This document shows, piece by piece, positions 16,783-35,501 of a stretch of DNA of 64,000 nucleotides; position 1 is the stretch's first letter; each line of letters starts with the position of its first letter. Source of the stretch: Chloroflexota bacterium (GTDB lineage: Bacteria; Chloroflexota; Anaerolineae; Anaerolineales; Anaerolineaceae); NCBI GenBank assembly GCA_009773005.1, contig WOUT01000006.1, forward strand, positions 62,001 through 126,000, given 5' to 3'. Both the position numbers and the translations under genes were made by a program. The notes beneath the pieces are model-generated. The model was not told the DNA's origin and made no database searches. It saw only the letters and a list, made by a program, of their open reading frames with translations.

Positions 16783-17676
16783 ATGATCAATCCGCATCCA
16801 GGACTACCAGAATTACAGTATGTAAAACCCGCGTCCCTTGTTGAAGCTAGCAAGTTTCTGGCTGAACATGAGAACACGGCAAAGCCCTTCTCCGGCGGGA
16901 CCGATAGTTTTGTTCGCCTTCGCGATGGGGTTTTAAAGTTAGATTACCTCGTCGACGTAAAAGGATTGGATGGAACGAATGAATTATCCTTTGATCCTCA
17001 AAAAGGACTAACGATCGGCGCCGCTGTTACAATGAACCGCGTTGCAGCACACCCGGATGTAATAAAACATTATCCAAATCTTGCTGAAGCAGCCACATCC
17101 GTTGCCAGCTACCAGTTGCGCAACCGCGCCACAATTATTGGTAATATCTGTAACGCCTCTCCTGCGGGCGACACGATCGGGACATGCATGGTAATGGATG
17201 GTGTATTAAGAGTTCACGGTTTGGATGGCATTTACAGCGTTCCTCTTAATGCGTTTTTCCTGGCTCCAGGACGCACCGTGTTAAAGCCAGGTGACGTAGT
17301 GGTCTCTATCACTCTACCTGTTCCTCAAGAGGGTTTTATCGGTACTTATAAAAAACTTGGACGTAACATGATCGGGGATCTATCTATCGTCGGCGTCACT
17401 GTGATGGGATACCCTTGCAATGAAAGCCCGTCAGGATATCGCTTCCGCATCGCTCTGGCTTCTGTGGCGCCAGTGCCTTTTGAGGCGTTAAAAGCAGAAG
17501 CGGCTCTTGCCGAGAAGAATATCACCGAAGACTTGATCGCTGAAGCAGCAAAAGTGGCAATGGAATCTGTCACTCCTATTGATGATGTGCGCGGCTCAGC
17601 CCGCTACCGCAAGTTTATGGTAAGAAACCTGACCCGCGAAGCTCTCACGGAAGTCTGGAAGAAACTCAACAAATAG
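16783..17676 (+). CDS. Xanthine dehydrogenase family FAD-binding subunit
   Basis: A 297-residue FAD subunit of a molybdenum hydroxylase (CoxM/XdhB type). The FAD motifs are visible: AKPFSGGTDSF near residue 36, the ASYQLRNRATIIGNICNASPAGDT stretch near 108-130 (the conserved R-N-x-x-x-x-G-N-x-x-x-x-x-P-x-x-D pattern), and the C-terminal CO-dehydrogenase flavoprotein domain ending DDVRGSARYRK. It passes electrons from the iron-sulphur subunit to an acceptor. It is the first gene of a three-gene FAD/FeS/Mo set, 37 bases before the next. The ribosome site is weak (ACAGGA). Confidence 0.93.
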   Translation: MINPHPGLPELQYVKPASLVEASKFLAEHENTAKPFSGGTDSFVRLRDGVLKLDYLVDVKGLDGTNELSFDPQKGLTIGAAVTMNRVAAHPDVIKHYPNLAEAATSVASYQLRNRATIIGNICNASPAGDTIGTCMVMDGVLRVHGLDGIYSVPLNAFFLAPGRTVLKPGDVVVSITLPVPQEGFIGTYKKLGRNMIGDLSIVGVTVMGYPCNESPSGYRFRIALASVAPVPFEALKAEAALAEKNITEDLIAEAAKVAMESVTPIDDVRGSARYRKFMVRNLTREALTEVWKKLNK

Positions 17677-17713
17677 ACACGCGTAATGAAATGACCCTTT
17701 TTAGGAGGAAACA

Positions 17714-18175
17714 ATGTCTTTGAAAAGAATTACACTCACCGTTAACGATTTGGTTGAAACGGTGGATGTTCCCCAGAATATGACTCTGCTCCAGATGATC
17801 CGTGAAAAACTATCGTTAACCGGAACAAAAAACGGTTGTTCGGCTGGCGAGTGCGGCGCCTGCACAGTATTAATGAATGGCGAACCTGTGAATAGCTGCA
17901 TGGTCCTCGCTGCTGAATGTGATGGCGTGAAGGTTGTAACCATTGAAGGCCTCGCAAAAACAGGAACATTGAGTGAACTTCAAAAAGCGATCATCAGCTC
18001 TGGCGGCGTTCAATGCGGGTTCTGCACTCCTGGCATGCTCATCTCAGCCACTGCACTGCTAAAACGCAATCCAGGCCCTTCAGACACTGAAATCCGGGAA
18101 GCAATTGTCGGAAACCTGTGCCGCTGCACGGGATACGTCCGCATCGTTGATGCAATAAGACAAGCGGCAAAATAA
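17714..18175 (+). CDS. Xanthine dehydrogenase family 2Fe-2S subunit
   Basis: A 153-residue iron-sulphur subunit (CoxS/XdhC type). The plant-type 2Fe-2S cluster uses the Cys set in [17 protein letters not shown] plus a Cys in VNSC (about residues 40-62). The second cluster uses CGFC and CRCTGY (about 100-138). It relays electrons between the molybdenum and FAD subunits. The ribosome site TTAGGAGG is strong. It lies between the FAD and Mo subunit genes, as usual for this complex. Confidence 0.95.
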
Positions 18176-18235
18176 AACCCAATCTTTTTTAGGGTAAAGA
18201 TCAAGGATAGGAGAAATCCTCCAAGGAGCCGAAAT

Positions 18236-20593
18236 ATGGCAAACGCAAAATCAAAAGAACAAACCTCCAGTCCGATCGGCGCAAGCTTGCCGCGTAACGA
18301 TGTTTACGAAAAAGTGACTGGCACAGCTATATATGCAGATGATATCCAATTCGGGAATAAACTTCTCTATGCTCGCGCCAAGAGAAGCCCATACCCCCAC
18401 GCATTGATCAAGAAGATAGATACCAGCAAAGCAGAAGCCCTGCCTGGTGTAAAAGTAGTTGCCACTGGAAAAGATTTTCCAGACCGGATCGGTCTATATC
18501 TGCAAGATAAAACGATCTTTGCCACAGACCGCGTTCGTTTTGTCGGCGAACCAGTCGCTGCAGTTGCGGCAATCAATGATGAGATCGCCATGAAAGCCAT
18601 TGAATTGATCGAGGTTGAATACGAACAACTTGAAGCCGTGTTTGACGCAGAGTTTGGCGCATCAGATAAAGCCCCCTTGATTCACCCCAAGTTGGGCGAA
18701 TATGTGTACCCGAACTTTATCTTCCCCAAACCCGGCACCAATATTGCCAATCATTTCAAGATTCGCAAAGGCGATGTGGCATCTGCCTGGAATAATTGCG
18801 CACATATTGTAGAAAAAACTTATAAAATCCCGCACATTCAACATGTACCCATTGAAACTCACGTTGCTATCGCACAAATGGATGAAAAAGGAAAAGTGAC
18901 TCTTTGGGCGTCATCGCAATCCCCATTCGCACAGCGTAATTTGATCGCCAAGGCGCTGCATATCTCACAGAGTGATATGCGTGTGATCGCACCGCTTGTT
19001 GGCGGCGGATTCGGCTCAAAAGCCGGCGTAACCATGGAAGCAATTCCTGTTGCGCTTGCAACCAAATGTAAGGGTTGGCCTGTAAAATTCATTCTGACGC
19101 GCGAAGAGGAATTCTTCACCAACTTCGTCCGCCAGGGTTTGACGATCCATGTTAAAGTCGGCTGCGACAAAGACGGCAATCTTCTCGCTTTGAAAAATGT
19201 AATGTATTGGGATGGCGGCGGCTCTACAGAATATGGCGTCAATGTCACCCGCGCTGGTGGATATTCAAGCTCAGGTCCTTATGACATCCCGAACGTTGAA
19301 ACTGACAGCATTTGTGTGTATACCAATCACCCCATCGGCGGCGCCTATCGCGGTTTCGGTATGTCTGAGCTGCACACCGGTATTGACCAGGCTATTGATG
19401 AGCTGGCAGAAAAAATTGGTATTGATAAAATCTCATTCCTTAAGAAAAATGGCGTGTCCGAAGGCGATATTCTCGTGACCGGCATGACCATGCACGCCAA
19501 CGGATTACAACAATGCATCGACAACGTTGCTAAATCCTTAAACTTTAACGAAAAAGCCAAACCCTCTTCGCCAGACCGGCTGCGCGGCAAAGGTATCGCA
19601 ATCGCCTGGAAAGCCCCCGCCATGCCCCCCAACGCCGGATCAAGCGCCTGGTTGGAACTGGCTGAAGACGGCAATGTCACCGTTGGTCTTGGCGGGCAGG
19701 AAATTGGTCAGGGTACCTTCACCGTTATGGCGCAAATGGCGGCTGCTGCTTTGGGCGTGTCATATGATAAAGTGCGCATCGCGGGTCCGGTTGATACCCA
19801 ATACAGCCCCTACGAATGGCAAACTGTCGCCAGCCGGCTGACCTGGAGTATGGGAAACGCCATTCGCGCTGCTGCAACTGACGCTCGCAAACAGATCCTG
19901 GATATGGTTGCAGAAGCCTGGAAAGAAAATGTTGAAGATCTGGATATTGTCAATGGCGTTGTAGTCTCTTACAAGAGCGAACAAGAGATCCCTCTTTCCA
20001 ATATCGTTATTTATGGCTTGCCAAAAGAGAATGATCAGGGATGGATGGGAGGGCCGATCATCGGACGCGGTTCCTTTATGCCAAAATATGTTACTGGGCT
20101 TGATTCGGAAACCGGTCAAGGTCCGCGTGCTGTTGTGCATTACACTGTCGGCTGCGAAGGTCTGGATATTGAAATCGATAAGAACACCGGCAAAATTTAC
20201 GTTCAAAAAGCTGCGGCTTCCTTTGACGTCGGCAAAGCCATCAATCCTGCGCTGGTAAAAGCCCAGATCGAAGGTGGATTTGTACAAGGGTTAAGTTCGG
20301 CTATGTTTGAAGAGATCAAACTCAAAGAAGGCGTCATGACCAATCCGAGCTTTGTGGATTATCGCATCGCCACTGCCCCGGATGTTGATTTTCCGCTGGA
20401 CACCCCGTTCGTAGAGGTTCCTCAAGATGATGGTCCATGGGGAGCGCGTGGAATCGGAGAACACCCGATGGTTCCAACCATCGCCGCCTTGGGTAACGCC
20501 ATCTATGACGCCACAGGTATCCGGTTGCAAGGTCCTCCATACTCGGCTGAGAAGATCTATCTTGCTATGCTGGATGCTGGAATTGTAAAATAA
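18236..20593 (+). CDS. Xanthine dehydrogenase family molybdopterin-binding subunit
   Basis: A 785-residue catalytic subunit of a molybdenum hydroxylase. Visible motifs are the N-terminal domain opening at [15 protein letters not shown], the cofactor loop [10 protein letters not shown] near residue 258, the substrate-side loop [11 protein letters not shown] near 367, [11 protein letters not shown] near 483, and GARGIGEHP near the end, which carries the presumed catalytic Glu. Family members hydroxylate N-heterocycles or aldehydes with water as the oxygen donor. Sequence alone does not separate purine, pyrimidine, nicotinate or other substrates. The neighbouring amidohydrolase and BMP importer favour a nitrogen heterocycle. 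A hairpin follows 14 bases after the stop. Confidence 0.93.
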
Positions 20594-20607
20594 CCTTCTA
20601 ATCAAAC

Positions 20608-20636
20608 AACATGCCGGATTTCATCCGGCATGTTTT
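20608..20636 (+). terminator. Hairpin between the Mo subunit and amidohydrolase genes
   Basis: 11-bp stem (AACATGCCGGA with its complement), 5-base loop and a short TTTT tail. It probably gives partial termination or mRNA protection between the hydroxylase genes and the amidohydrolase. A false upstream ATG of the next gene falls inside it. Confidence 0.7.
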
Positions 20637-20667
20637 AACAAAATCCTTAATAAATGAGGTGGTTGAA

Positions 20668-21909
20668 ATGGTTGATAAATATGAATTGATCGTCCGAAAT
20701 GCCGTCCTCAGGGGTGAATCCAAACAAACAGTGGATATTGCGATTGAGGATGGAAAAATCGCTGAGATCGCTCCAGTGATTTCCGCCATGGGCGCTCAAG
20801 AAATTGACGCCCTGGGCAACCTGGTCACCGAATCCTATGTCAATACACACCTTCACCTATGTAAAGTTTATACATTGATGATGATGGATGAAGCCGCGCT
20901 CAAAGATTATCATGGCGCAGACATGGGCAAAGCAATGACCGCCATCGAACTGGCAGCCAAAATTAAAGAAAATTATGATGAGAAATGGATCATCAAGAAT
21001 GTAAGAAAGGCTTGTGCCCTTGCCGGCCGTTATGGCTGCACGCACATTCGCGCTTTCGCGGACGTGGATTCAAAAGGCAAGTTGGAAGGCTTAAAAGCTC
21101 TCCTCAAAGCGCGAGAAGAATTTAAAGGCATTGTGGATATTCAGGTTGTTGCTTTTGCACAGGACGGTCTCGTGCGTGAACCTGGCGCCGAAGACTTGAT
21201 GCGCCAGGCTATGAAATTGGGCGCAGATGTGGTCGGCGGCATCCCCTGGATCGAATATACAGATGCTGATATCGCCGAACATGTGCGCATCTGCTTCAAA
21301 ATCGCCAAAGAATTTGACAAACCTGTTTCCATGCTCGTGGATGACGCGGGTGATGCAGGATTGCGGTCGCTGGAACTCATGGCGCTGGAAACGATTAAAA
21401 CAGGTTGGCAAGGCCGCTCGTTGGCACACCACGCCCGCGCAATGGCTCTGTATGCCAAACCCTACCTGCAAAAACTGGCTGCGCTGCTCAAGAAAGCTGA
21501 TATGGGTGTTGTCAGCGATCCCCACACCGGTCCGCTGCATGCGCGGGTACGCGAATTGCTTGAGGAGAACGTCCTAGTCTGCCTTGGTCAGGATGACATC
21601 TCTGACGCTTACTATCCATACGGACGCAACAATATGCTTGAAGTCGCTTTCCTTAATTCACACCTGTTATGGTTCACTACCCGCGAGGATATGGAAGTGC
21701 TCTATGACATGGTCACTAAAAATGCAGCCCGCGCGATCAGTCTCAAGGATTTTGGCTTAGAAGTTGGCGCGCTCGCCAATATTGTCATTTTGGACCAACC
21801 AAACGTATTGGAAGCGCTGCGGTTTCATGAAAAACCCGTATACGTTATCAGTCATGGCAAGATTGTTGACCAGACGAAAATGAACGAGATTATTAAGATA
21901 AATGGTTAG
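20668..21909 (+). CDS. Cytosine-deaminase-like amidohydrolase
   Basis: A 413-residue amidohydrolase of the CodA/AtzC subgroup. The ATG at 20668 is chosen because GAGGTGG stands 5 bases upstream. It has the N-terminal metal motif HLHL (about residues 62-65) and the C-terminal GQDDISDAYYPYGRNNML, which matches the metal Asp region of CodA. It also has AHHARAM, which matches the catalytic His. Where CodA has the third metal His and catalytic Glu (VHCDE), this protein reads MLVDD, so His is replaced by Leu and Glu by Asp. Deamination or ring hydrolysis after the hydroxylase step is the likely role, but the altered site leaves the chemistry open. Confidence 0.82.
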   Translation: MVDKYELIVRNAVLRGESKQTVDIAIEDGKIAEIAPVISAMGAQEIDALGNLVTESYVNTHLHLCKVYTLMMMDEAALKDYHGADMGKAMTAIELAAKIKENYDEKWIIKNVRKACALAGRYGCTHIRAFADVDSKGKLEGLKALLKAREEFKGIVDIQVVAFAQDGLVREPGAEDLMRQAMKLGADVVGGIPWIEYTDADIAEHVRICFKIAKEFDKPVSMLVDDAGDAGLRSLELMALETIKTGWQGRSLAHHARAMALYAKPYLQKLAALLKKADMGVVSDPHTGPLHARVRELLEENVLVCLGQDDISDAYYPYGRNNMLEVAFLNSHLLWFTTREDMEVLYDMVTKNAARAISLKDFGLEVGALANIVILDQPNVLEALRFHEKPVYVISHGKIVDQTKMNEIIKING

Positions 21910-21960
21910 ACTGCAATTCAATACCCACTTAGAAAATTTGATTCCTGTATCACGATTTTA

Positions 21961-21989
21961 TTGACATTGGTCCCATTTTTCTCTATGAT
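21961..21989 (+). promoter_or_regulatory. Strong promoter of the BMP-type ABC operon
   Basis: TTGACA, a 17-base spacer and TATGAT: a near-consensus sigma-70-type promoter, leaving a leader of about 205 bases. The spacer contains ACATTGGTCCCATTTT, which is similar to a block upstream of the molybdenum hydroxylase operon (16457-16472). Confidence 0.7.
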
Positions 21990-22146
21990 AATAAATGCAT
22001 ATTGTTAGACAATCGAATTAGATCTCAGGGGCTCTTTCATAAATATTTTTAAACTGTATGCGCCCTTCTTGTCCTTTATCATGCGGATATCGTGCTCCCC
22101 GATGGGGATAAACGTAAAAACCGTAACTTTAATTATAAGGAGGTGG

Positions 22147-22206
22147 TTGTTTAAAGAATCTGATCGTCGTGCCAACCTGGTTACATTAGAAAAGAGGAGA
22201 ATATGA
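22147..22206 (+). CDS. Possible 19-residue leader peptide overlapping the BMP gene start
   Basis: A TTG codon 3 bases after a very strong AAGGAGG opens a 19-codon frame (MFKESDRRANLVTLEKRRI). Its TGA overlaps the ATG of the BMP gene as ATGA. This arrangement suggests translational coupling or a leader peptide. It could equally be a decayed start region, since the binding protein has its own GAGGAG. Confidence 0.35.
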   Translation: MFKESDRRANLVTLEKRRI

Positions 22207-23267
22207 AAAAGAAACTGACCATTTTCGTTGCAGTATTGATGGTACTTGCGCTAAGCTTAGGCGCCTGTCAAAAAGCCGTCCCTGCCCCGACTGAAGCGCC
22301 CAAGACAGAAGCGCCGGTAGCCACCGAGGCGCCTGTTGTTGAAATGCCAAAAGTTGTAAAAGTTTTCGGTGCATTTGCCACGGCTATCGAGGAACCATGG
22401 GATGGTGTAATCCATCATGCTTTGAAAGAAGCGGAAGCAAATGGACAAATCGAATACTCCTACACTGACGATATCGGCTATGCCGGAGATATGGAACGAA
22501 TTCTTCGTGAAGTTGCTGAACAGCAAAAACCCGATCTCATCATTGGTGATGCTTTTGGCAATGAAGAAGCAGTTCGCCGTGTGGCAAGTGATTACCCTGA
22601 AATTGCGTTTGCTTTTGGATCTGGTTTTGGTCCCTCGGGCGATAACTTCTCAGTTTTCGATAACTGGATTCACGAACCGGCTTACCTGTGCGGTTTGCTG
22701 GCGGGCGGCTTGTCAAAGACAGGAATTATTGGGGTTGTGGGTGGAGTTCCTGTTCCAGAAGTCAATCGTATTACAAATGCCTTCATCCAGGGCGTCAAAG
22801 AAACCAATCCGGAAGCCAAAGTTTTGGTATCCTTCATCAATTCCTGGTTTGATCCTGCTGCGGCGAAAGAAGCTGCGATAGCCCAGATTGGCGCCGGCGC
22901 AGATGTGCTATTTGCCGAGCGATTTGGCGTTATTGAAGCTGCTGCTGAAAAAGGTCTATTCGCTTTTGGTAACATGAGCGATCAGAATGAACTTGCTCCA
23001 GATTTCGTCGTTAGCAGTGCAGTTTGGAATATGACTCCAACTGTTCAATACCTCATCGAGCAGGTTAAAGGCGGCACCTACACTTCACAAGACCTTAAAG
23101 ATTTCAGTATGGTTGGCAAAGGAGGCGCATCATTGGCTCCATTCCATGGCCTCGAAAGCAAGATCCCTGCTGACCTTTTGGCTTTGGTAAAAACAAAGGA
23201 AGAAGCTATCAAAGCTGGTCTCTTCCGAGTGGACATTGACGAAGCGCAACCTGGCGCTGTAAATTAG
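22203..23267 (+). CDS. BMP family ABC transporter substrate-binding lipoprotein
   Basis: A 354-residue BMP/PnrA-type binding protein. The signal ends at lipobox LSLGAC, followed by a Pro/Thr/Glu/Ala tether (about 25-48). The domain has the family features VFGAFATAIEEPWDGVIHH, GDAFGNEEAVRRVA, FAFGSGFGPSGDNFSVFDNW and GIIGVVGGVPVPEVNRITNAF. BMP proteins bind nucleosides or purine-like compounds. The surrounding hydroxylase and amidohydrolase genes suggest it supplies their heterocyclic substrate. It is the first gene of a four-gene importer operon with its own near-consensus promoter and a hairpin behind it. Confidence 0.92.
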   Translation: MKKKLTIFVAVLMVLALSLGACQKAVPAPTEAPKTEAPVATEAPVVEMPKVVKVFGAFATAIEEPWDGVIHHALKEAEANGQIEYSYTDDIGYAGDMERILREVAEQQKPDLIIGDAFGNEEAVRRVASDYPEIAFAFGSGFGPSGDNFSVFDNWIHEPAYLCGLLAGGLSKTGIIGVVGGVPVPEVNRITNAFIQGVKETNPEAKVLVSFINSWFDPAAAKEAAIAQIGAGADVLFAERFGVIEAAAEKGLFAFGNMSDQNELAPDFVVSSAVWNMTPTVQYLIEQVKGGTYTSQDLKDFSMVGKGGASLAPFHGLESKIPADLLALVKTKEEAIKAGLFRVDIDEAQPGAVN

Positions 23268-23282
23268 TAATTAGATCAAATA

Positions 23283-23312
23283 AGGACGGTGGGCTCTAAC
23301 ACCCACCGTCCT
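23283..23312 (+). terminator. Stable hairpin after the BMP gene
   Basis: 11-bp stem (AGGACGGTGGG with its complement) and an 8-base loop, no T-tract. It probably protects the binding-protein mRNA and lowers read-through into the ATPase gene, like the palindrome behind phnD. Confidence 0.6.
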
Positions 23313-23357
23313 AAACCCGAAGCTGTTACCGCCAAATATGACGTAGAAGGATTAAGT

Positions 23358-24842: not shown

Positions 24843-24872
24843 TTTTAAAGTTTATTTGGTGGAGGAGTTAAA

Positions 24873-25925: not shown

Positions 25926-25926
25926 A

Positions 25927-26838
25927 ATGGATGAGTTTATCGTTGGCTTGATTGCCGCCACTCTTAGAGTTGCTACCCCCTTGATATTTGCGACTCTTGG
26001 TGAATTGTTTTGCGAGCGTGCAGGAGTTCTCAACCTCGGAATAGAAGGCACAATGTTCTTAGGTGCTTTTGTGGGATTTACCGCCGCATCTATGACAGGG
26101 TCTCTTTGGATCGGGTTACTTGCTGCCGCTATAAGTGGTATTTTATCAGGTTTGTTAATGAGTCTCTTATCCGTCAGGCTTGGAGTCAATCAGCATGTTT
26201 CAGGTTTAGGGATCACCCTACTGCTCATTTCTCTTTCACTATTCAGTTATCGCATCATCTTTGGTGAGAGTAAAATTCCACCGTCTATAAACTCATTTGA
26301 TTTGTTGAAAATTTTTTCTGATAACCCCGTCCTTGGCCCTATTTTTTCTCAATACTTGCTCACTTATATAGCCATAGCGATTATTCCTGTTGTGTGGTAT
26401 ATCCTGTTCCGAACTACCTTCGGTTTGAATATTCGCGCAGTTGGGGAGAATCCTGAAGCTACTGATGCGGCAGGAATTAACGTATACAAATTACGGACCT
26501 CCGCCTTAATGATCGGCGGCGCACTGATGGCTATTGGAGGATCGTTTATCACACTTGCCCAACTTGGTTCTTTCACATTCGGTATCATTGCCGGCAGAGG
26601 ATGGGTTTGTATTTCGTTGGTGATTTTTGGCAACTGGCATCCAATCAAGGTCTTGCTCGGAGCGCTTCTTTTCGGTGGGGTTTCTGCATTGCAGTTGCGT
26701 CTGCAATTGAAAGGTTTGAAGCTCCCATACGAGATTTTCCTTGCACTCCCTTATATCGTTACCATCATCGCACTTACCATTGCCGGACGGAACGCCTCTT
26801 ATCCAGCCGCACTGTTGAAACCATACAAACGGGAATAG
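25927..26838 (+). CDS. BMP-type ABC importer permease 2
   Basis: A 303-residue partner permease of the BPD_transp_2 family (NupQ/YufQ-like). Motifs are TPLIFATLGELFCERAGVLN, LGIEGTMFLGAF, FGLNIRAVGENPEATDAAGI and GRGWVCISLVIFGNWHP. It is one base after permease 1 and is followed by a terminator, so it ends the importer operon. Confidence 0.92.
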   Translation: MDEFIVGLIAATLRVATPLIFATLGELFCERAGVLNLGIEGTMFLGAFVGFTAASMTGSLWIGLLAAAISGILSGLLMSLLSVRLGVNQHVSGLGITLLLISLSLFSYRIIFGESKIPPSINSFDLLKIFSDNPVLGPIFSQYLLTYIAIAIIPVVWYILFRTTFGLNIRAVGENPEATDAAGINVYKLRTSALMIGGALMAIGGSFITLAQLGSFTFGIIAGRGWVCISLVIFGNWHPIKVLLGALLFGGVSALQLRLQLKGLKLPYEIFLALPYIVTIIALTIAGRNASYPAALLKPYKRE

Positions 26839-26869
26839 CGTATGGCAGCCTAAATCATATCAAATCTAC

Positions 26870-26907
26870 AGGCATGAGGAAATCGCAGTTTTCCAAATGC
26901 CTTTTTT
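26870..26907 (+). terminator. Terminator of the importer operon
   Basis: AGGCAT pairs with ATGCCT and inner GGAAA pairs with TTTCC, separated by a 2-by-2 internal loop. A run of T follows directly. It lies 31 bases after the second permease. Confidence 0.65.
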
Positions 26908-27041
26908 ATCCCGTTTCCGAAATTATTAACATGACAATCAACCGTTGAGTACGCTATATGTATCACTTGAAATGTCAGACATCCAGCCGTACACTATAAG
27001 ATATGTGTAATATTTCCAAACAATAAATCACGGAGGTAGTA

Positions 27042-28619
27042 ATGGCTCAAAGCAAACCAGAAGCCGAGGTTGGTCACGAAGCATTAACGAACAAGTTGAA
27101 AACGCTTCGCGGTCAGATGAAAGCAGGTGGTGGAGAAAAAAGGATCGAAGCCCAACATGCAAAAGGTAAAATGACTGCGCGAGAGCGCATTGATGCCTTA
27201 TTGGATGAGGGTACGTTCCAGGAAATCAATGGTTTGATGGTTAGCCGCCACACTGACTTTGGTCTGGATAAAGAGAAAATTCCAGGTGACGGGATCGTAG
27301 CCGGTTTCGGCAAGGTCAATGGTCGGCGTGTTTGTGTGTACGCCCAGGATTTCACTATCATGGGCGGTTCTTTCGGTGAAGTTGCCGGACAAAAAGTTGC
27401 ACACATCATGGACATGGCAATGGATGCCGGTGTTCCAGTGATCGGACTCAACGATGGCGGCGGCGCACGCATTCAGGAAGGCATTTTCAGCCTTTACGCC
27501 TACGGCGAAGTTTTCTACCGCAATACAATGGCTTCCGGCGTTATTCCTCAGATTTCTGTAATCCTTGGACCCTGCGCAGGCGGCGCTGTTTACTCTCCCG
27601 CATTAACCGATTTCATCGTCATGACCAAGGGAATTAGCAATATGTTCATCACCGGACCCGAAGTCATCAAGACCGTCACCCACGAAGTTGTTGACGTTGA
27701 AACCCTCGGTGGCGCAATGGCTCATTCCTCCACAAGCGGTGTGGCCCATTTTGCTGCGGAGAACGAAAAGGAAGCCCTGTCTGCAGTCCGCGATCTGCTA
27801 GGTTATCTCCCTGCCAATTACAAAGAAACAGCCCCTGCAGCCGAAGTGTCTGATGATCCCTGGCGTATGGACAAAGAACTCGATACGATCGTCCCGGCCG
27901 ACCCCTCCGTTGGTTATGATATGAAAGAGGTCATCAACCGCATTTGTGACCGAAATTCCTTCATGGAAGTAATGGCCAACTTCGCCCAGAACTGTATCAT
28001 CGGCTTTGCCCGTTTGCATGGACAGTCGATCGGTATCGTCGCGCAGCAACCTTTATTCATGGCTGGCGCCATCGACATTGATGCTGCTGATAAAATGGCC
28101 CGCTTTGTTCGATTCTGCGACGCCTTCAACATTCCTCTGATCACTTTCTCAGACTCACCTGGTTTCTTGCCCGGTGTCTCTCAGGAACACGGCGGCATTA
28201 TTCGTCACGGCGCCAAAATCGTCTACGCATTCTCCGAAGCCTCAGTACCAAAACTCACCGTCGTCACTCGCAAAGGCTATGGCGGAGCATATATCGTCAT
28301 GAGCAGCAAGCATATCCATGCGGATATGGTATTCGCCTGGCCTGGCGCCGAAATCGCTGTCATGGGCGCTGAAGGAGCAGTCGCTATTCTTTATCGCAAG
28401 GAACTTGCTGAAAAAGCAGATTCTGGTGAAGAACGCAAACGGCTGGTTGCTGAATTTAAGGAAAAATTCTCCAACCCATATATTGCAGCCAGCGCCGGGT
28501 TTGTTGATGATGTACTCTTCCCGCATGAAACCCGCCCCAGATTGATCGCTGCGCTTGAGCTTCTGCGCGACAAACAAACCCATACTCCGGCCAAAAAACA
28601 TGGCTGCATACCCTTATAG
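27042..28619 (+). CDS. mmdA: Biotin-dependent acyl-CoA decarboxylase carboxyltransferase (MmdA-like)
   Basis: A 525-residue acyl-CoA carboxyltransferase of the MmdA/PccB family. It has the N-terminal crotonase half (GKMTARERIDALLDEGTF, GGGARIQEG, GPCAGGAVYSPALTDF) and the C-terminal half (FSDSPGFLPG, a RKGYGGAYIVMSSK stretch, AWPGAEIAVMGAEGAV). In methylmalonyl-CoA decarboxylase this subunit moves the carboxyl group from the acyl-CoA to biotin. The three following genes match the delta, biotin and beta subunits of the Na+-pumping complex, so decarboxylation rather than carboxylation is expected. Substrate (malonyl-, methylmalonyl- or another CoA ester) is not resolved. The ribosome site is GGAGG. 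Confidence 0.88.
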   Translation: MAQSKPEAEVGHEALTNKLKTLRGQMKAGGGEKRIEAQHAKGKMTARERIDALLDEGTFQEINGLMVSRHTDFGLDKEKIPGDGIVAGFGKVNGRRVCVYAQDFTIMGGSFGEVAGQKVAHIMDMAMDAGVPVIGLNDGGGARIQEGIFSLYAYGEVFYRNTMASGVIPQISVILGPCAGGAVYSPALTDFIVMTKGISNMFITGPEVIKTVTHEVVDVETLGGAMAHSSTSGVAHFAAENEKEALSAVRDLLGYLPANYKETAPAAEVSDDPWRMDKELDTIVPADPSVGYDMKEVINRICDRNSFMEVMANFAQNCIIGFARLHGQSIGIVAQQPLFMAGAIDIDAADKMARFVRFCDAFNIPLITFSDSPGFLPGVSQEHGGIIRHGAKIVYAFSEASVPKLTVVTRKGYGGAYIVMSSKHIHADMVFAWPGAEIAVMGAEGAVAILYRKELAEKADSGEERKRLVAEFKEKFSNPYIAASAGFVDDVLFPHETRPRLIAALELLRDKQTHTPAKKHGCIPL

Positions 28620-28645
28620 GCTAATCTCACCAAGGAGGTGTTACT

Positions 28646-28948
28646 TTGAGTGACTTTCAAACAGGCTTGGTCATTAGTGGTGTAGGACTTCTGGTCACCT
28701 TCACATCCTTACTGATTTTTATCGGGGTTATGGTTCTTTTGCAAAAACTCTTCCCGGTGAAAGTGGAGAAAAACGAAGGTCGACCAGTTGACGAAGTGAA
28801 ACCGGCTGAATTAACTTTGGGATCCGAAGCTGGCGCCGAAGAGATCATTGCTGCGCTTGCCGCTGTAGCTTTTATTCGAGCGCAGCGCACAGGCCAACTT
28901 GGAGCCTCCCTGCTCTCAGGCCCCGGTCCTTATCGAACTTCTCGTTGA
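28646..28948 (+). CDS. mmdD: Na+-pumping decarboxylase small membrane subunit (OadG/MmdD-like)
   Basis: A 100-residue small subunit. It starts at TTG, 7 bases after a strong AAGGAGG; no in-frame ATG fits better. One TM helix lies at about residues 8-34 (VISGVGLLVTFTSLLIFIGVMVL), then a charged linker and a C-terminal EEIIAALAAVAFIRAQ stretch as in OadG/MmdD, which holds the complex together. It is encoded between the carboxyltransferase and the biotin carrier. Confidence 0.8.
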   Translation: MSDFQTGLVISGVGLLVTFTSLLIFIGVMVLLQKLFPVKVEKNEGRPVDEVKPAELTLGSEAGAEEIIAALAAVAFIRAQRTGQLGASLLSGPGPYRTSR

Positions 28949-28991
28949 CAAACCAGGAAAGATAATTTCGGAAATAGTAGGAGTAAAAAAA

Positions 28992-29441
28992 ATGAGCAAA
29001 GAGTTACGCGTAAAAGTTAACGGAAAATCGTATGTTGTGGAAATCAGTGACTTTTCCGGGGGTCTGGCAAATGTAACTGTAAATGGTACACAGTATTCAA
29101 TTGAAATTGAAGATGCGGGTGGTGCGGTTCTACAACCAGTGGTAAAAACAACATCCGCTGCAATCCCTGGTCCGGTAAAAGCTGCTCCTGTCACTGCAAC
29201 TCCAGTTGCGATTGCGTCAGCCTCCAATGGGGATGTGATCTCTGCTCCGATGCCTGGAGTGATCCTGGATATCGCAGTTAAACCTGGTGACAAACTCGCA
29301 GCAGGTGCAACTGTCTGTGCTTTGGAAGCGATGAAAATGAAAAACATCCTCCGCACTCCACGCGAGGGAACCGTTGCCAGCGTTGAGGTCAGCGAAGGGC
29401 AGCGCGTCCCCTTTGGCGCCGTGATCATCCGGTTTGCGTGA
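28992..29441 (+). CDS. mmdC: Biotin carrier subunit of the Na+-pumping decarboxylase
   Basis: A 149-residue biotin carrier. The ATG at 28992 is chosen, with GGAG upstream; a longer reading would overlap the previous gene. It has an N-terminal beta domain (LRVKVNGKSYVVEI), an Ala/Pro/Val/Thr-rich flexible linker (about 50-75) and a biotinyl domain with the lysine motif EAMKMKN near residue 115. It shuttles the carboxyl group from the carboxyltransferase to the membrane decarboxylase. It ends 7 bases before the beta subunit gene. Confidence 0.9.
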   Translation: MSKELRVKVNGKSYVVEISDFSGGLANVTVNGTQYSIEIEDAGGAVLQPVVKTTSAAIPGPVKAAPVTATPVAIASASNGDVISAPMPGVILDIAVKPGDKLAAGATVCALEAMKMKNILRTPREGTVASVEVSEGQRVPFGAVIIRFA

Positions 29442-29448
29442 GGCAGAT

Positions 29449-30576
29449 ATGGACCTTTCGAAACTACTTGTCTTATTAGACGCATTCAAAGAATTACATT
29501 GGCAAAATTTAATCATGATTGCTGTTGGCGGAGTGTTAATTGCCCTGGCTGTCATTAAAGAATACGAACCCAATCTTCTCCTGCCAATTGGATTTGGAGC
29601 GATCCTTGCTAACCTGCCACTTACTGGAGCAACTGAAGCCGGGGGTTGGTTAAAAACTCTTTTTGATGCCGGAATCGCAACAGAACTCTTCCCGTTATTC
29701 GTTTTTATTGCCATCGGCGCAATGACGGATTTTGGCCCTCTGCTGGAAAACCCCAAAATGGCGCTGCTCGGCGCTGCCGGACAGTTCGGGATCTTTATCA
29801 CCTTACTGCTTGCGCTTGCCACTGGTATGTTCACACTCAATGAAGCCGCTTCTATCGGTATTATCGGCGCGATTGATGGGCCAACTGCAATCTACGTTTC
29901 GTCAAAACTCGCACCGCACTTGCTCGGACCCATTACCGTTTGCGCGTATAGTTATATGTCGCTTGTCCCCATTATCCAACCGCCTGTCATGAGATTTATG
30001 ACAAGCAAGGCTGAGAAAATCGTCCATATGCCCTATACAATCAAGGAAGTGTCACGAGCGGTTCGGATCCTCTTTCCGATCACCGTAACTGTAATTGTTT
30101 CGCTGATTGCACCGAAAGCATCCCCGCTCATCGCATCACTGATGTTCGGTAATCTTATCCGTGAGTCTGGAGTCGTGGATCGCCTGAACAATGCTGCACA
30201 GAACGAACTGGCAAATTTAACCACGCTTTTCCTCGGTCTTGTCATAGGCTCGACCATGGAAGGGGTCAACTTTATTAAACCTACTACCCTTCTTATCCTT
30301 GCATTAGGTCTTTTTGCCTTTGTAATGGATACTGTGGGTGGCCTTTTGCTTGGTAAGATCATGTATGTGCTTTCCGGTAAGAAATTCAATCCATTGATTG
30401 GCGCGGCGGGTATTAGTGCATTCCCAATGTCCGCCCGCATTGTACAGAGATTCGGACAGGAATACGATACCAGCAACTTCCTTTTAATGCACGCTATGGG
30501 AGCCAATGCTGCCGGTCAGTTAGGTAGTGTTATTGCTGGTGGAGTTGTTTTGGCTATTATTGCCGGCGTTATGTAA
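29449..30576 (+). CDS. mmdB: Na+-translocating decarboxylase beta subunit (OadB/MmdB-like)
   Basis: A 375-residue membrane protein of the OadB family. The ATG at 29449 follows GAGG. Key motifs are IGAIDGPTAIYVSSKLAP, which contains the Asp used for Na+ and proton handling in OadB, MSLVPIIQPPVMR, and IGSTMEGVNFIKPTT near the C-terminal half. It decarboxylates carboxybiotin and exports Na+. With the three genes before it, it makes a complete primary Na+ pump, so this pathway can conserve energy without respiration. Confidence 0.93.
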   Translation: MDLSKLLVLLDAFKELHWQNLIMIAVGGVLIALAVIKEYEPNLLLPIGFGAILANLPLTGATEAGGWLKTLFDAGIATELFPLFVFIAIGAMTDFGPLLENPKMALLGAAGQFGIFITLLLALATGMFTLNEAASIGIIGAIDGPTAIYVSSKLAPHLLGPITVCAYSYMSLVPIIQPPVMRFMTSKAEKIVHMPYTIKEVSRAVRILFPITVTVIVSLIAPKASPLIASLMFGNLIRESGVVDRLNNAAQNELANLTTLFLGLVIGSTMEGVNFIKPTTLLILALGLFAFVMDTVGGLLLGKIMYVLSGKKFNPLIGAAGISAFPMSARIVQRFGQEYDTSNFLLMHAMGANAAGQLGSVIAGGVVLAIIAGVM

Positions 30577-30651
30577 GTACTAAAAATTGTTACAATAACT
30601 ATTGGTTTTCAGAATCATTTGTACTACAAATTTTGAAAAGGAGACGGAAAA

Positions 30652-31533
30652 ATGAAACTGCTCGATCTTACCATCCCGCTCGGAATCGGTACACCTGCAT
30701 GGCCAACTTATGAACCGCTGCAGATTAAATACTTCAAAAGATTGGCCCCCAACGGCGCCAATGGTCAATTATTGACCCACTCCAACCATCTTGGCACTCA
30801 TCTTGATGGTGAAATTCACTTCTACACCCCTGGCAGAGATATTGCCCAATTGCCATTGGATTACTTGGTTCATGATGCAGCAATTGTAGATTTGAGCGAT
30901 GTGTGCGGTGATTATGACGTTTACACCAGCAAAATGATCACTGACCGGGTAGAAGTTAAAGAAGGTGACATCCTCGTTATCCATACCGGTTACCATCACT
31001 TTGGCTGGGATCAACCCACTGCTGATGAAGTTCGCTACATGGTCAAACACCCAGGTCCCGATCAGGAATTTGCCGATTGGGCGAATAAAATGAAACTGCG
31101 CTGGATCGCCGTTGATTGCGGTTCTGCCGATCACCCCATGAACACCATCATCCGTTCATGGATGCCCCGCCAGACGAAACAGGCTGAATACGTGTTCAAG
31201 AAGAAATTCAACAAATCCCTGGAAGAATTTTTCACCGAAGAGAAATATCAACTCATGCACATCGATTTATTCCCGAAACAGATCATCCATGCTGAGTGCT
31301 TTGGCGGTATGATCGATCTGCTGCTCAATCGGCGCGTGCAGGTTGGGTTCTTCCCATGGCGCTTTGTTGACGGCGAAGCCTCAATCGGCCGCGCTGTGGC
31401 TTTCCTTGAAGACAAAGAGTATGATGAGCTTATGAAAAAAGCCGAGAGCATGTCAAAAACAAAATTTGGTGATGTCTACGAAATCAAGCACGTTGAGAGC
31501 CTGAATAAGTTAAGCAAAGCCAACATGGCTTAA
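30652..31533 (+). CDS. Cyclase-family metal-dependent hydrolase
   Basis: A 293-residue protein of the putative cyclase family (PF04199), which includes kynurenine formamidase and isatin hydrolase. The metal-binding motif HLGTHLDGEIHF (about residues 46-57) matches the family's H-x-G-T-H-x-D pattern, and ILVIHTGYHHFGWD follows near 105. Members hydrolyse amide bonds in formylated or cyclic amides with a divalent metal. It is about 80 residues longer than KynB. It follows the Na+-pump genes after a 75-base gap, with AAAAGGAG upstream. A hydrolytic ring-opening or amide-cleavage step of the pathway is likely. Confidence 0.82.
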   Translation: MKLLDLTIPLGIGTPAWPTYEPLQIKYFKRLAPNGANGQLLTHSNHLGTHLDGEIHFYTPGRDIAQLPLDYLVHDAAIVDLSDVCGDYDVYTSKMITDRVEVKEGDILVIHTGYHHFGWDQPTADEVRYMVKHPGPDQEFADWANKMKLRWIAVDCGSADHPMNTIIRSWMPRQTKQAEYVFKKKFNKSLEEFFTEEKYQLMHIDLFPKQIIHAECFGGMIDLLLNRRVQVGFFPWRFVDGEASIGRAVAFLEDKEYDELMKKAESMSKTKFGDVYEIKHVESLNKLSKANMA

Positions 31534-31573
31534 GCTTCCTGAATTATCAATATTCGTAAAAAGGAGAAATAAA

Positions 31574-32299
31574 ATGAAATTCGAACTTCCAGAAAAAGCA
31601 TCAGTCGAAACACTGCAAATCGACGTCCGAGACGTGGAAGCCCTTCTTCAGGGACCCGCGATGGATTTGCCCAAGTGGCCAGGCGCCCAGGTCAAATTAA
31701 AAGACGGCCGCACACTTTTCATCCGCGAAGCCCGGCTTGATGAAGCTCCAAAAATGATGGAATACATGAAACGCATCATGGAAGTGGATCACGACTTCTA
31801 TGATATCGTTGGCGCCCGTGTATACGCCGAAATCCTTGGTTGGTATCGCCACCGGCTCAAAGATCCTTATACCCTCGTTGGTTTGATCGATGGTGTTTGG
31901 GCTGGTTTCGCAAACGGTCGTGTTATGAATGAAGACATAAATATCAGCCTTCACACCGTTGCGCTCGACCGCGGTGGACGCATCGGCGCCGTCATGTACT
32001 ATGCCAAGGCTTACTATGCCTTCGAAATGATCAAAAACACCGAATGGTGGGCCACTTACGAATCCTACAATGGCTGGATGCGCTGGGGGCTTGGTATGGC
32101 TCAGCCTTCTTACCCGTGGCCCGATGTTCAACACGAACTTGGCGGCGCCCGTGTTTACTATGTCACCAAGAAGTACTGGGATCAGTTGGTCAAGAAATAC
32201 GTTCAACAGATGGCCGGTGCTGAATTGGACTTCAATGTCCCCGATTCAGTCCGCAAAGTCAACGAAAACTTTACAGTCCCCGAAGGGATCAACGTCTAG
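31574..32299 (+). CDS. GNAT-like protein of the heterocycle cluster
   Basis: A 241-residue soluble protein. Residues about 45-190 look like a GNAT fold: a beta-strand opening TLFIREARLDEAPKMMEYM, a central strand TLVGLIDGVWAGFANGR, and a GGRIGAVMYYAKAYYAFE stretch that could be the CoA loop, though it is not a clean Q/R-x-x-G-x-G/A. It has many Trp/Tyr in the C-terminal half (WWATYESYNGWMRWG). An AAAGGAG site precedes it. As the last gene of the operon, with an acyl-CoA decarboxylase upstream, it may act on a CoA ester. The function is not known. Confidence 0.55.
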   Translation: MKFELPEKASVETLQIDVRDVEALLQGPAMDLPKWPGAQVKLKDGRTLFIREARLDEAPKMMEYMKRIMEVDHDFYDIVGARVYAEILGWYRHRLKDPYTLVGLIDGVWAGFANGRVMNEDINISLHTVALDRGGRIGAVMYYAKAYYAFEMIKNTEWWATYESYNGWMRWGLGMAQPSYPWPDVQHELGGARVYYVTKKYWDQLVKKYVQQMAGAELDFNVPDSVRKVNENFTVPEGINV

Positions 32300-32321
32300 T
32301 TTTAGACGAACTGGTTTTTAG

Positions 32322-32352
32322 AAGAGAGTCCTTTTCGGGCTCTCTTTTTTTT
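32322..32352 (+). terminator. Terminator of the decarboxylase operon
   Basis: 10-bp stem (AAGAGAGTCC paired with GGGCTCTCTT, one G-U) and a 5-base loop, followed by nine T. It lies between the GNAT-like gene and the convergent DUF2877 gene. Confidence 0.9.
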
Positions 32353-32353
32353 A

Positions 32354-33250
32354 TTAGTCAGTTTTTAAGGTTGCCCAGGCTGCAAATATACCCATGCAAG
32401 TATCGACACCTGATGAGTGGCCAAAGCCCATAATGTATTTAATTTTCGTTTCGCTCAATTCTTTTTCGATAGCCACTATGTAGTCAACGGCATCAAGGAA
32501 TATTTCCTCCGCCCAACCACGGCAAGCCGCTTCAATTCGATTCGCTGAGATTTTTGTGGTTTTTTGAAATGACATTTCGGTCAAAGACTCGCCTAAACTG
32601 GCAAAAAATGGGTTATTTTTGCCCATCGATTGATCGATTCTCGCATGGAACAGCATGAATCCCGCTAACCAGTCATCGCCTGAAGGGGTCAAACCTCCTC
32701 CCAGACCGATGATTGATCTTGCAGTGTCCAAACAATAAGTGAGATCTGAGATTTTGAAGCTTGACATAAAAGCCGTGGTAATATTTTTTATTCGATCCTT
32801 GGCAGAACCAAGTGGTTCAAGGTCAGTATCCCCGCAATTTCCAAGAAACAACCAGCCCTTTTTCGAGTCGTTTTCACACATTCGTCCAAGTATCAATTCA
32901 ATTCGTTCAGCCTGAGTCCGGTCAGAGTTTGTGTTTTTTGGTGGCTGACTTGGTTGCCAAAGCTTTGCTCGGTGAACATCAATTACAATTTCATGCAGGG
33001 GAAACAGGATTGCGTTATCAGATACGGTAAATTCATCGCCTGCAACGACAGTGTTAGAAAGATCATTCATTTGCCTGACCTGTAAATTAAAAGGGCTTTT
33101 ATAGCCAGCCCCGGTCAGAAACAGGATCTTATCCGCTGAATTGAGGAATATGCCCTTGGAGGTAACTCCGACTGCTTTGCCAGGCGCGCCAGCCCCGAGC
33201 GCTTCCAGTGCGAGACCGCCAATTTGAACAGCATTAAATACCTTTGTCAT
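32354..33250 (-). CDS. DUF2877 (AllH-like) protein
   Basis: A 298-residue DUF2877 protein. Signatures are IGLGGGLTPSGDDWLAGFML near residue 180 and MGFGHSSGVDTCMGIF near 280. The family includes AllH, a subunit of oxamate carbamoyltransferase in allantoin breakdown, where AllF and AllG are partners. Neither partner is encoded here. It is convergent with the catabolic operon, with only 1 base to its terminator, so it is probably separately regulated. A link to ureido or carbamoyl chemistry of the same pathway is inference. Confidence 0.78.
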   Translation of the reverse strand: MTKVFNAVQIGGLALEALGAGAPGKAVGVTSKGIFLNSADKILFLTGAGYKSPFNLQVRQMNDLSNTVVAGDEFTVSDNAILFPLHEIVIDVHRAKLWQPSQPPKNTNSDRTQAERIELILGRMCENDSKKGWLFLGNCGDTDLEPLGSAKDRIKNITTAFMSSFKISDLTYCLDTARSIIGLGGGLTPSGDDWLAGFMLFHARIDQSMGKNNPFFASLGESLTEMSFQKTTKISANRIEAACRGWAEEIFLDAVDYIVAIEKELSETKIKYIMGFGHSSGVDTCMGIFAAWATLKTD

Positions 33251-34340: not shown

Positions 34341-34907
34341 TCAATCCAGTGGGATTTTATCCAATTCGAACTCGCAACATACCCCCCGGACACTCTGACA
34401 ATAAGTCTCTCTACTCCCGAAGTATTTTCCACCGCCTGCCCAACTGAGCAGTTCCTGTACCATGCCTGAGAAGAAATTGCATTCCAATACTGAATTCGTC
34501 TCAGTCAAACCTGCTACTAAAACATGCCATGTTTTTGGTAACTCGTGGATTTCAGCGTTGATCAGCATTTCAGTATTCATAAAATTAAAAAGGTCAGACA
34601 TCGCACGCTTCACCTTGGAGCGGGTGGGTAATAAGCGGAAGTCGGCACCTTTCCATCCCAGGAATTCGCCAGATTTCCGCATCCAGTAGTAAAATCCCGC
34701 TCGTCCTGCCCTGATTAGTATCCCGCGAGTAACAAGCTCGCCAAATTGAGTTGTCAAAATGTTTTTAAAAGCAGGCAGACCGGTGCGGGTTTCAGAGGTC
34801 TGAACCCTGGCAGCAATCTCGTTAAGAACTGCACATCCGAGGATTTCTTTAAGACCTTCTTGAATAAAGTCTTGCATTTCGTTAATTTGTATTCTTGATG
34901 AGTCCAT
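34341..34907 (-). CDS. V4R-like small-ligand sensor protein
   Basis: A 188-residue protein. The C-terminus, with YCQSVRGVCCEFELDKIPLD preceded by GMVQELLSWAGGGKYFGSRE, resembles the V4R domain, which binds small aromatic or hydrocarbon ligands and has clustered Cys. The N-terminal 100 residues are helical, with a basic patch (TRSKVKRAM). It ends an operon with a PATAN-domain protein and an MglA-like GTPase, so it may be a sensor or regulator of the GTPase. The family call is tentative. Confidence 0.5.
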   Translation of the reverse strand: MDSSRIQINEMQDFIQEGLKEILGCAVLNEIAARVQTSETRTGLPAFKNILTTQFGELVTRGILIRAGRAGFYYWMRKSGEFLGWKGADFRLLPTRSKVKRAMSDLFNFMNTEMLINAEIHELPKTWHVLVAGLTETNSVLECNFFSGMVQELLSWAGGGKYFGSRETYCQSVRGVCCEFELDKIPLD

Positions 34908-34936
34908 AAATTAATCTGCTCGCTCTGTGATCAAGG

Positions 34937-35482: not shown

Positions 35483-35501
35483 TAGACACATTCCTTTAAT
35501 T

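Follow-up and report, generated by a model that had tools for sequence, protein, structure and literature searches.

A conserved Chloroflexota gene cluster as a candidate for anaerobic pyrimidine breakdown coupled to a Na+-pump decarboxylase

We analyzed a window of 64,000 nucleotides from a Chloroflexota genome (assembly GCA_009773005.1, contig WOUT01000006.1, positions 62,001 to 126,000). The window lies on the contig called C11 here, in a genome of 2.86 Mb and 105 contigs. Between positions 16783 and 33250 it encodes a molybdenum (Mo) hydroxylase, an amidohydrolase, a BMP-type ATP-binding cassette (ABC) importer, a biotin-dependent Na+-pump decarboxylase of the methylmalonyl-coenzyme A (CoA) type (Mmd), a cyclase-family metal hydrolase, a GNAT-fold protein, and AllH, a subunit of oxamic transcarbamylase; all genes that an earlier, sequence-only reading had named between these positions were confirmed. 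Gene order and content recur in relatives, so the set is beyond chance, and the genes almost certainly form one functional unit. That this unit is an anaerobic, energy-conserving, oxidative pyrimidine pathway is a reading to which we give about an even chance; its substrate and every reaction are inferred from the observed linkage, co-occurrence, and folds. According to a 2021 study on sediment bacteria that degrade DNA, genes for anaerobic breakdown of pyrimidine bases could not be identified, the enzymes being unknown (PMC8289736). The locus would offer a concrete candidate gene set for this process, with two energy-conserving steps (ATP and the Na+ pump).

Recurrence of the Gene Cluster

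Fourteen genes lie on the + strand from 16783 to 32299. The intergenic gaps of this run are 1–75 bp long, except for 293 bp before the BMP gene and 203 bp before the MmdA gene. A sigma-70-like site (11-of-12 match, 21961–21989) is found inside the 293-bp gap, and a terminator-like stem-loop with a 12-pair stem and a T run (32320–32348, + strand) closes the run; the AllH gene is convergent to it and lies beyond the stem. Promoter- and terminator-like sites were no more numerous in the region than in shuffled sequence.

Genome contigs were scanned with a 13-row alignment of the cyclase, and at least 568 relatives were found; among them, the closest to the window cyclase come from metagenome-assembled genomes (MAGs) named Anaerolineaceae or Chloroflexi. 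The best 80 loci were kept, each with up to 10 kb of flanking sequence per side, frequently shorter. Since they are the best-scoring of at least 568, these loci are biased toward kin of the window, and a sample of 150 genomes of the class is less affected by this. The two collections share members, and the same record can occur twice (e.g., L052/L113, L053/L128, L033/L106, and L034/L110). Within the flanks of the 80 loci, a Mo hydroxylase of either of two subfamilies is present in 41, the GNAT protein in 56, AllH in 42, AllF or AllG in 30, Mmd in 27, and a BMP protein or its permease in 26. Rarer companions are a thiolase or its OB partner (27 loci), an amidohydrolase (11), an NCS2 permease (11), CoxG (10), and a CN-hydrolase (6). 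The GNAT protein and the CN-hydrolase never occur together (56 and 6 loci, 0 with both, kinship uncorrected), which fits alternative enzymes for one step.

In 26 of the 27 Mmd loci, Mmd lies 5′ of the cyclase and shares its strand; only in L089 is it downstream on the opposite strand. In 21 of the 26, MmdB directly precedes the cyclase; three have AllF-AllG in between, L113 has an MmdA fragment before AllF, and in L149 MmdC precedes the cyclase. A Mo hydroxylase accompanies 13 of the 27 Mmd loci within the flanks. When five loci were extended upstream, three Mo-hydroxylase subunits and an amidohydrolase appeared in all five, raising this number to 18. The complete window order (Mo hydroxylase, amidohydrolase, BMP importer, Mmd, cyclase, GNAT, AllH) is found in L076/L184, L081/L187, L082/L185, and L083/L186. 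The order of the three blocks joined in the sequence-only reading thus recurs, and they are not unlinked in all relatives. The fullest locus is L117/L188 (JAJXZS010000036.1, 35072–55046), where genes for NCS2, the FAD, FeS, and Mo subunits, the amidohydrolase, BMP, the ATPase, two permeases, MmdA, MmdC, MmdB, AllF, AllG, the cyclase, and GNAT follow one another on one strand; 3′ of GNAT come one unnamed open reading frame (ORF) and then a convergent AllH. MmdD was not detected in this locus. It holds all genes of the pathway proposed below in one place, except carbamate kinase.

In the class sample, 55 of the 150 genomes contain a cyclase relative (E ≤ 1e-20) and 52 contain AllG. Both occur in 49, the cyclase only in 6, AllG only in 3, and neither in 92 (Fisher 5e-29, kinship uncorrected); AllG is present in 37 of the 41 genomes with a close cyclase orthologue. 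OAD_beta, the family of MmdB, is found in 58 genomes. Its gene is no more than 5.5 kb away from a close cyclase in G000 and G084 and from AllG in G020, G026, G056, and G031; on a short contig of G021 (the same record as L113) an MmdA fragment lies beside AllF. Mmd therefore adjoins the cyclase or AllFGH in 6 of the 58 Mmd genomes, or in 7 with the split contig of G021, from families f1, f22, f28, and f32 (plus f23). By our estimate, well under one such case would be expected by chance in 58 genomes. The layouts differ: Mmd-AllF-AllG in G031, Mmd-AllH-AllF-ORF-AllG in G020 and G056, Mmd-AllH-amidohydrolase-AllF-AllG in G026, and Mmd-AllH-two ORFs-cyclase in G084. Because contigs are often short, linkage in this sample is underestimated.

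The cyclase also keeps related company outside the phylum. In the haloarchaeon Halostagnicola larsenii the neighbors of a 52% identical cyclase are codB, a Mo hydroxylase, and a cytosine deaminase, which was scored with two models (459.1, cut-off 438; 458, cut-off 483). In Halorussus a BMP importer accompanies the cyclase; in two Haloarcula records, two nucleobase-type permeases and an amidohydrolase do so. The link between cyclase and Mo hydroxylase therefore reaches Archaea. Cyclases of 51%–52% identity are found on haloarchaeal plasmids (L171–L174, L176, and L177); their companions are a Mo hydroxylase together with XdhC (in three records), a BMP importer, or NCS2-type permeases. A 41% identical relative from Rhodococcus ruber has a ring-hydroxylating dioxygenase and a CN-hydrolase as neighbors.

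Properties of the Encoded Proteins

The decarboxylase is encoded by four consecutive genes on the + strand. MmdA, the carboxyltransferase subunit (27042–28619), matches TIGR01117 best (760.7 bits vs. a cut-off of 998.8) and resembles propionyl-CoA carboxylase (PCC) beta chains. The MmdC biotin carrier (28992–29441) has the AMKM motif and scores below the MmdC equivalog cut-off (68.3 vs. 200), and MmdB, the membrane decarboxylase and Na+-pump subunit (29449–30576), is well above that of TIGR01109 (427.7 vs. 190.6). The small gamma-type membrane subunit MmdD (28646–28948) reaches 25.9 bits in PF04277 (OAD_gamma), where the cut-off is 27, so the complete MmdADCB pump of the sequence-only reading depends on a borderline D. 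The window MmdB is the only OAD_beta protein found in the genome; in 50 genomes examined, OAD_beta was found in 41, as a single match in 39 of those. Biotin-dependent Na+ pumps named in the part of PMC8473912 that deals with them are the oxaloacetate, methylmalonyl-CoA, and glutaconyl-CoA decarboxylases; malonyl-CoA as a substrate of such a pump is what we infer here. One residue of MmdA varies with linkage. After GGAY (or its equivalent), Ile follows in 25 of the 26 linked rows that cover the stretch (L150 counted once), the exception being L089, with Val and Mmd on the opposite strand; 14 unlinked proteins have Val in nine cases and Ile in five. This is only suggestive, because the PCC 3n6r also has Val there.

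Cluster-linked decarboxylases belong to more than one lineage. A tree of 45 MmdB proteins (an earlier tree had 40 rows) places linked copies in two divergent clades of 8 and 24 rows, of which 7 and 23 are linked; of the other 13 rows, 12 are unlinked and one, L089, is linked. At least four changes between linked and unlinked are forced by this tree. The L076 cyclase is 92% identical to that of the window and its MmdB only 55%; therefore, either a different Mmd took the place of the old one next to the same cyclase or linkage arose twice. A quick tree of the cyclase with 81 rows (the window and the 80 loci) requires eight changes for Mmd linkage and nine for thiolase linkage. Without a common function, an association that recurs in this way would be difficult to account for. 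No common partner gene was seen by eye beside most of the 14 unlinked Mmds.

The protein that the sequence-only reading had called DUF2877 is present (32354–33250, − strand) and belongs to the family now named AllH (PF11392, 74 bits vs. 25). No other AllH was found in the genome. A single AllG was found, at C11:18719–19363; it and an AllF-type Ligase_CoA protein lie within C11:16686–19711, so that all three subunits are encoded on the window contig, AllF and AllG about 73 kb away from AllH; in L116, AllF scores above the FdrA cut-off. In E. coli, AllF-AllG-AllH is described as oxamic transcarbamylase, converting oxalurate and phosphate to oxamate and carbamoyl phosphate (PMC11326118, relevant passage). 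The presence of AllH and AllF/AllG on one contig points to an N-carbamoyl (ureido) intermediate. Among 33 cyclase genomes searched, AllG is found in 32 and AllH in 31, and a catabolic carbamate kinase above the cut-off in 30, the window genome included. AllF and AllG belong to a second, paralogous cluster about 30–50 kb upstream of the window (L072, C11:12000–31900), which also encodes a GNAT paralogue (53%), a fused double cyclase, a second Mo-hydroxylase subfamily, CoxG, NCS2, and NmrA.

The cyclase-family metal hydrolase that the sequence-only reading had named is encoded at 30652–31533 (+ strand). It is a 293-amino acid PF04199 protein that keeps the HxGTHxD motif and belongs to a strongly conserved subfamily of its own. 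When its predicted structure was compared with solved structures, 19 matches with E ≤ 0.001 were obtained, at 12%–18% identity: kynurenine formamidase, isatin hydrolase, other cyclase-type or predicted metal hydrolases, and one entry titled only MJ0783. Only the fold is taken from this model, since it is mediocre (mean predicted local distance difference test [pLDDT] score 72.9, below 50 at residues 11–52, 158–169, and 199–208). Isatin hydrolase opens a ring amide; the window cyclase, the proposed ring-opening enzyme, shares its fold with a ring-opening amidase.

The Mo hydroxylase is complete, as had been noted. Its FAD subunit (16783–17676; PF00941 and PF03450), 2Fe-2S subunit (17714–18175; PF01799 and PF00111), and Mo-cofactor subunit (18236–20593; PF01315, PF02738, and PF20256), all on the + strand, score above the cut-offs of the Pfam domains listed. 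The closest solved chain to the Mo-cofactor subunit is 4-hydroxybenzoyl-CoA reductase. This subunit falls below the cut-off of every NCBIfam model that it matched, and its scores in the xanthine dehydrogenase equivalogs lie under their cut-offs (XdhA models, 497.9 vs. 780 and 472.9 vs. 916). The amidohydrolase that follows (20611–21909, + strand; PF07969) belongs to the AtzC/cytosine-deaminase group: its solved matches are AtzC and cytosine deaminase chains, and its scores are below the cut-offs of the cytosine deaminase and AtzC families (267.1 vs. 438, 221.2 vs. 483, and 101.9 vs. 403). A cytosine-deaminase-like enzyme had been predicted; the family stands, with scores under the cut-offs and an altered metal-ligand region, the remaining His/Asp motifs being kept.

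The BMP ABC importer is likewise present. Encoded on the + strand are the BMP/PnrA-type substrate-binding lipoprotein (22203–23267, PF02608), the ATPase (23289–24842, its start perhaps at 23358 or 23373), and two permeases (24873–25925, PF02653; 25927–26838); the ATPase and the second permease were assigned from ORF and synteny. For the NCS2 permeases of Chloroflexota loci, the uracil permease model, followed by RutG, outscores the xanthine permease model in 12 of 12 proteins scanned (11 full or nearly full and one fragment; the fragments L085 and L146 were left out), all scores being below the curated cut-offs. This ranking and the cytosine genes of Halostagnicola count for pyrimidine over other rings.

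For the 241-amino acid protein encoded last in the run (31574–32299, + strand), no Pfam or NCBIfam match was found, and a sequence search for solved relatives gave nothing convincing (best E 0.02). An AlphaFold2 model built from 41 sequences (mean pLDDT 88, predicted TM-score 0.85) was compared with the PDB by Foldseek. There were 34 matches with E ≤ 0.001, mostly titled acetyltransferase or GNAT, and the query-normalized TM-score was at most 0.50 in the rows listed. The predicted structure agrees with the earlier description of the protein as GNAT-like, and we regard it as a GNAT fold that carries extra elements.

A thiolase and/or its OB (ChsH2) partner, without Mmd, occurs in 27 of the 80 loci, including L033, L034, L042, L048, L062, L067, and loci of L096–L152, and also in class loci. 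These thiolases have Pro in place of the catalytic Cys in 35 of 35 aligned rows (at least three of them duplicates), reading GPASG vs. ACGSG of two unlinked thiolases, and nearly all rows that reach that far keep the two His motifs. Their solved relatives are ordinary thiolases and, more weakly, the lipid-transfer protein 6ok1, which is Ltp2, a retro-aldolase acting together with an OB protein. Mmd and the thiolase are found together in none of the 80 loci (Fisher 7e-7). Exclusivity is not established: a tree-aware test had about six independent pairs, of which none varied in the same way and on average 3.3 in opposite ways (median p 0.25).

A Candidate Pathway and Its Alternatives

In the pathway that we propose, bases or nucleosides would enter through the BMP importer and, in relatives, also through a uracil-type NCS2 permease. 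The amidohydrolase might prepare the ring, perhaps by converting cytosine to uracil; this is the weakest step. The Mo hydroxylase would then oxidize uracil (or thymine) to barbiturate (or 5-methylbarbiturate), and the cyclase-family hydrolase would open the ring to ureidomalonate, an analogue of oxalurate. Being oxalurate with one more carbon, ureidomalonate makes an AllFGH homologue a natural candidate for the next reaction, phosphorolysis to malonamate and carbamoyl phosphate, from which carbamate kinase could form ATP. The GNAT protein, in a putative CoA-dependent step, or the CN-hydrolase of other loci, may turn the amide toward malonyl-CoA. Finally, MmdADCB would decarboxylate malonyl-CoA (methylmalonyl-CoA from thymine) with export of Na+. 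What points to pyrimidines is that their ring is composed of a carbamoyl part (C2 with nitrogen), a malonyl part (C4-C5-C6; methylmalonyl from thymine), and a further nitrogen, the first two matching AllFGH and Mmd, respectively. The sequence-only reading had proposed a heterocycle pathway joined to a Na+-pump decarboxylase; conserved linkage to a Mo hydroxylase of the heterocycle/xanthine dehydrogenase type upholds this in part, and the candidate substrates are now narrowed to a ring of carbamoyl and malonyl-type parts.

Rhodococcus and Nocardia possess an oxidative pathway consisting of uracil/thymine dehydrogenase, which is Mo-dependent, barbiturase, and ureidomalonase. In the relevant part of PMC3758960 this route is described as oxidation of the pyrimidine to barbiturate, opening by barbiturase, an AtzD-family enzyme, and cleavage by ureidomalonase to malonate and urea. 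An oxidative route being known (PMC3758960), the phrase "new type of catabolism" used in the sequence-only reading was too strong. Barbiturate formation and hydrolytic opening to a ureidomalonate-type product would be shared by the window locus; unlike the AtzD-family barbiturase and the malonate and urea end described there, it has a PF04199 cyclase, AllFGH, and a Na+ pump. Matches to the AtzD family (PF09663) were found in 0 of 28 genomes, and the control genomes likewise had none.

Other parts of the set also have known counterparts. The allantoin fermentation branch of E. coli uses AllFGH and AllK; the window genome resembles it in having AllF, AllG, and AllH on one contig and a carbamate kinase, and differs in that AllFGH is tied to a Mo hydroxylase, a cyclase, and Mmd, with a proposed substrate one carbon longer. 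Nitrifier MAGs combine allFGHK with bmpA-nupABC, likewise a BMP-type importer with AllFGH; the passages on this cluster name biuret/triuret-type hydrolases and no Mo hydroxylase, cyclase, or Mmd (PMC12625717). The pump shares subunits A, B, and C, a weak D, and the lack of a biotin carboxylase in the run with the Na+-translocating methylmalonyl-CoA decarboxylase of Veillonella and Propionigenium, whereas its genomic partner is the Mo-hydroxylase/AllFGH cluster and the linked MmdB clades stand largely apart from the unlinked ones. The cyclase shares fold and metal motif with isatin hydrolase and kynurenine formamidase and is separated from them by its low identity and its own subfamily. The parts are thus of known kinds and the combination new; we did not find it described in the PMC literature searched, subscription papers and preprints lying outside that search. 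The reading assigns testable roles to AllFGH-type transcarbamylases, the PF04199 cyclase subfamily, the orphan GNAT family, and the cysteine-less thiolase/OB pair.

Several observations weigh against the pyrimidine reading. No enzyme is proven for the conversion of malonamate to malonyl-CoA. In the amidohydrolase, LVDD aligns to HIHD of AtzC, whose His we take to be a metal ligand, and SMLVDDAGD is found in 12 of 12 aligned homologues; with the low family scores, this makes cytosine deamination doubtful. Across the 80 loci, a tree-aware test showed no association between the presence of the Mo hydroxylase and that of Mmd, and the two are absent from the pairs with p < 0.01. Of the 81 rows in the cyclase tree, 26 have no Mmd and no thiolase nearby. 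The Halostagnicola cluster also has a xanthine permease above the cut-off (453.8 vs. 414.15), and two other haloarchaea have Mo hydroxylase and cyclase without cytosine genes. Carbamate kinase is widespread in the class (121 of 150 genomes, E ≤ 1e-80) and in the window genome lies in a purine locus; it was rejected as a specific marker. A D-hydantoinase/dihydropyrimidinase (518 vs. 393 bits) is encoded in the same purine-type locus, and such an enzyme occurs in 27 of 28 genomes, which leaves room for a reductive pyrimidine route. Of the 27 Mmd-linked genomes, 26 (that of the window included) encode a protein of the methylmalonyl-CoA mutase family, another possible source of substrate for Mmd; absence of the mutase was accordingly rejected as proof for malonyl-CoA. 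An independent origin of the two linked Mmd clades is not forced, since a single ancient linkage followed by losses would likewise account for the four changes. Finally, most relatives are MAGs.

The unit might instead act on another N-heterocycle, such as a hydantoin, a modified base, a cyclic imide, or a nicotinate-like compound, with the ring first being hydroxylated, the cyclase opening it, AllFGH taking the carbamoyl group, and Mmd decarboxylating a CoA ester. This we consider rather unlikely. A Mo subunit above no NCBIfam cut-off and a diverged amidohydrolase would suit it, as would the second cyclase type and second Mo subfamily in the same genome; the uracil-type ranking of the NCS2 permeases, the cytosine genes of Halostagnicola, and the fit of carbamoyl plus malonyl to pyrimidine speak for pyrimidines. 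A variant of the pyrimidine chemistry, to which we give a low probability, would let Anaerolineae ferment pyrimidines while conserving the acyl energy of the ring: the GNAT protein would run backwards and cleave malonamide or carbamoylmalonamide with CoA straight to malonyl-CoA for the Na+ pump, the Cys-less thiolase and OB protein of sister operons serving as a novel, pumpless malonyl-CoA decarboxylase.

It appears improbable that the cluster serves a purine- or allantoin-type route, in which the ring would yield oxalurate, AllFGH would form oxamate and carbamoyl phosphate, and Mmd would be a mere neighbor. The genome has its own purine-type locus on another contig (C38:14000–45000; L182 and L183), encoding, besides the hydantoinase, an adenine deaminase (515.5 vs. 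472.5), an 8-oxoguanine deaminase (681.8 vs. 532), two carbamoyltransferase-family proteins, ArcC, a threonine-synthase-like enzyme, and an ABC importer resembling the BMP one; the window locus therefore probably serves another ring. Moreover, oxamate should not provide a substrate for a biotin-dependent Na+-pump decarboxylase, yet Mmd recurs beside AllFGH. In favor of purines are the proven AllFGH reaction with oxalurate and oxamate (PMC11326118, in the passage concerned), the xanthine permease of the haloarchaeal cluster, and the nitrifier genes allFGHK and bmpA-nupABC, which the corresponding part of PMC12625717 reads as serving the use of purine breakdown products.

Chance placement of an ordinary, propionate-forming methylmalonyl-CoA decarboxylase in the operon, the rest being an independent nitrogen-scavenging cluster, is improbable in our view. 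One Chloroflexi genome paper places, in its passage on this enzyme, Mmd of a single genome in propionate fermentation (PMC3971608). The window pump is the only OAD_beta found in its genome, a mutase family protein is present, and Mo hydroxylase and Mmd lack statistical association in the 80 loci, as such a role would allow. Against it stand the adjacency of Mmd to the cyclase or AllFGH in the four families f1, f22, f28, and f32 of the class sample, the involvement of two divergent Mmd lineages, and the want of a standout partner gene beside the 14 unlinked Mmds.

Neighboring Genes

Just upstream of the run, at 12300–16358, a large SBP3-PAS-GAF-PAS-GGDEF protein is encoded. A relative of 58%–59% identity has the same place in L075, L077, and L078, and the protein may therefore sense the substrate. 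Further upstream, at 9918–11021, lies a gene for a phosphonate-type binding protein (PF12974); relatives of 41%–70% identity are encoded divergently beyond the Mo genes in L184–L187.

In five loci of the Anaerolineaceae type (L103, L105, L112, L121, and L124), the genes for AllH, cyclase, and GNAT are clustered, and the flanks contain no Mmd, thiolase, or Mo hydroxylase. Their neighbors seem unrelated: BipA, an M1 peptidase, and, in L105, a two-component system. L105 belongs to a named strain, Bellilinea caldifistulae GOMI-1; its flanks were covered over 10 kb, and AllG and a partial OAD_beta match are located in other parts of its genome.

Downstream of the window cluster, at 34341–36317, are genes for a Ras/Arf-like small GTPase, a DUF4388 protein, and an orphan protein of 188 amino acids. 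The GTPase is conserved at 88%–89% downstream of the same cluster in L075, L077, L079, and L117.

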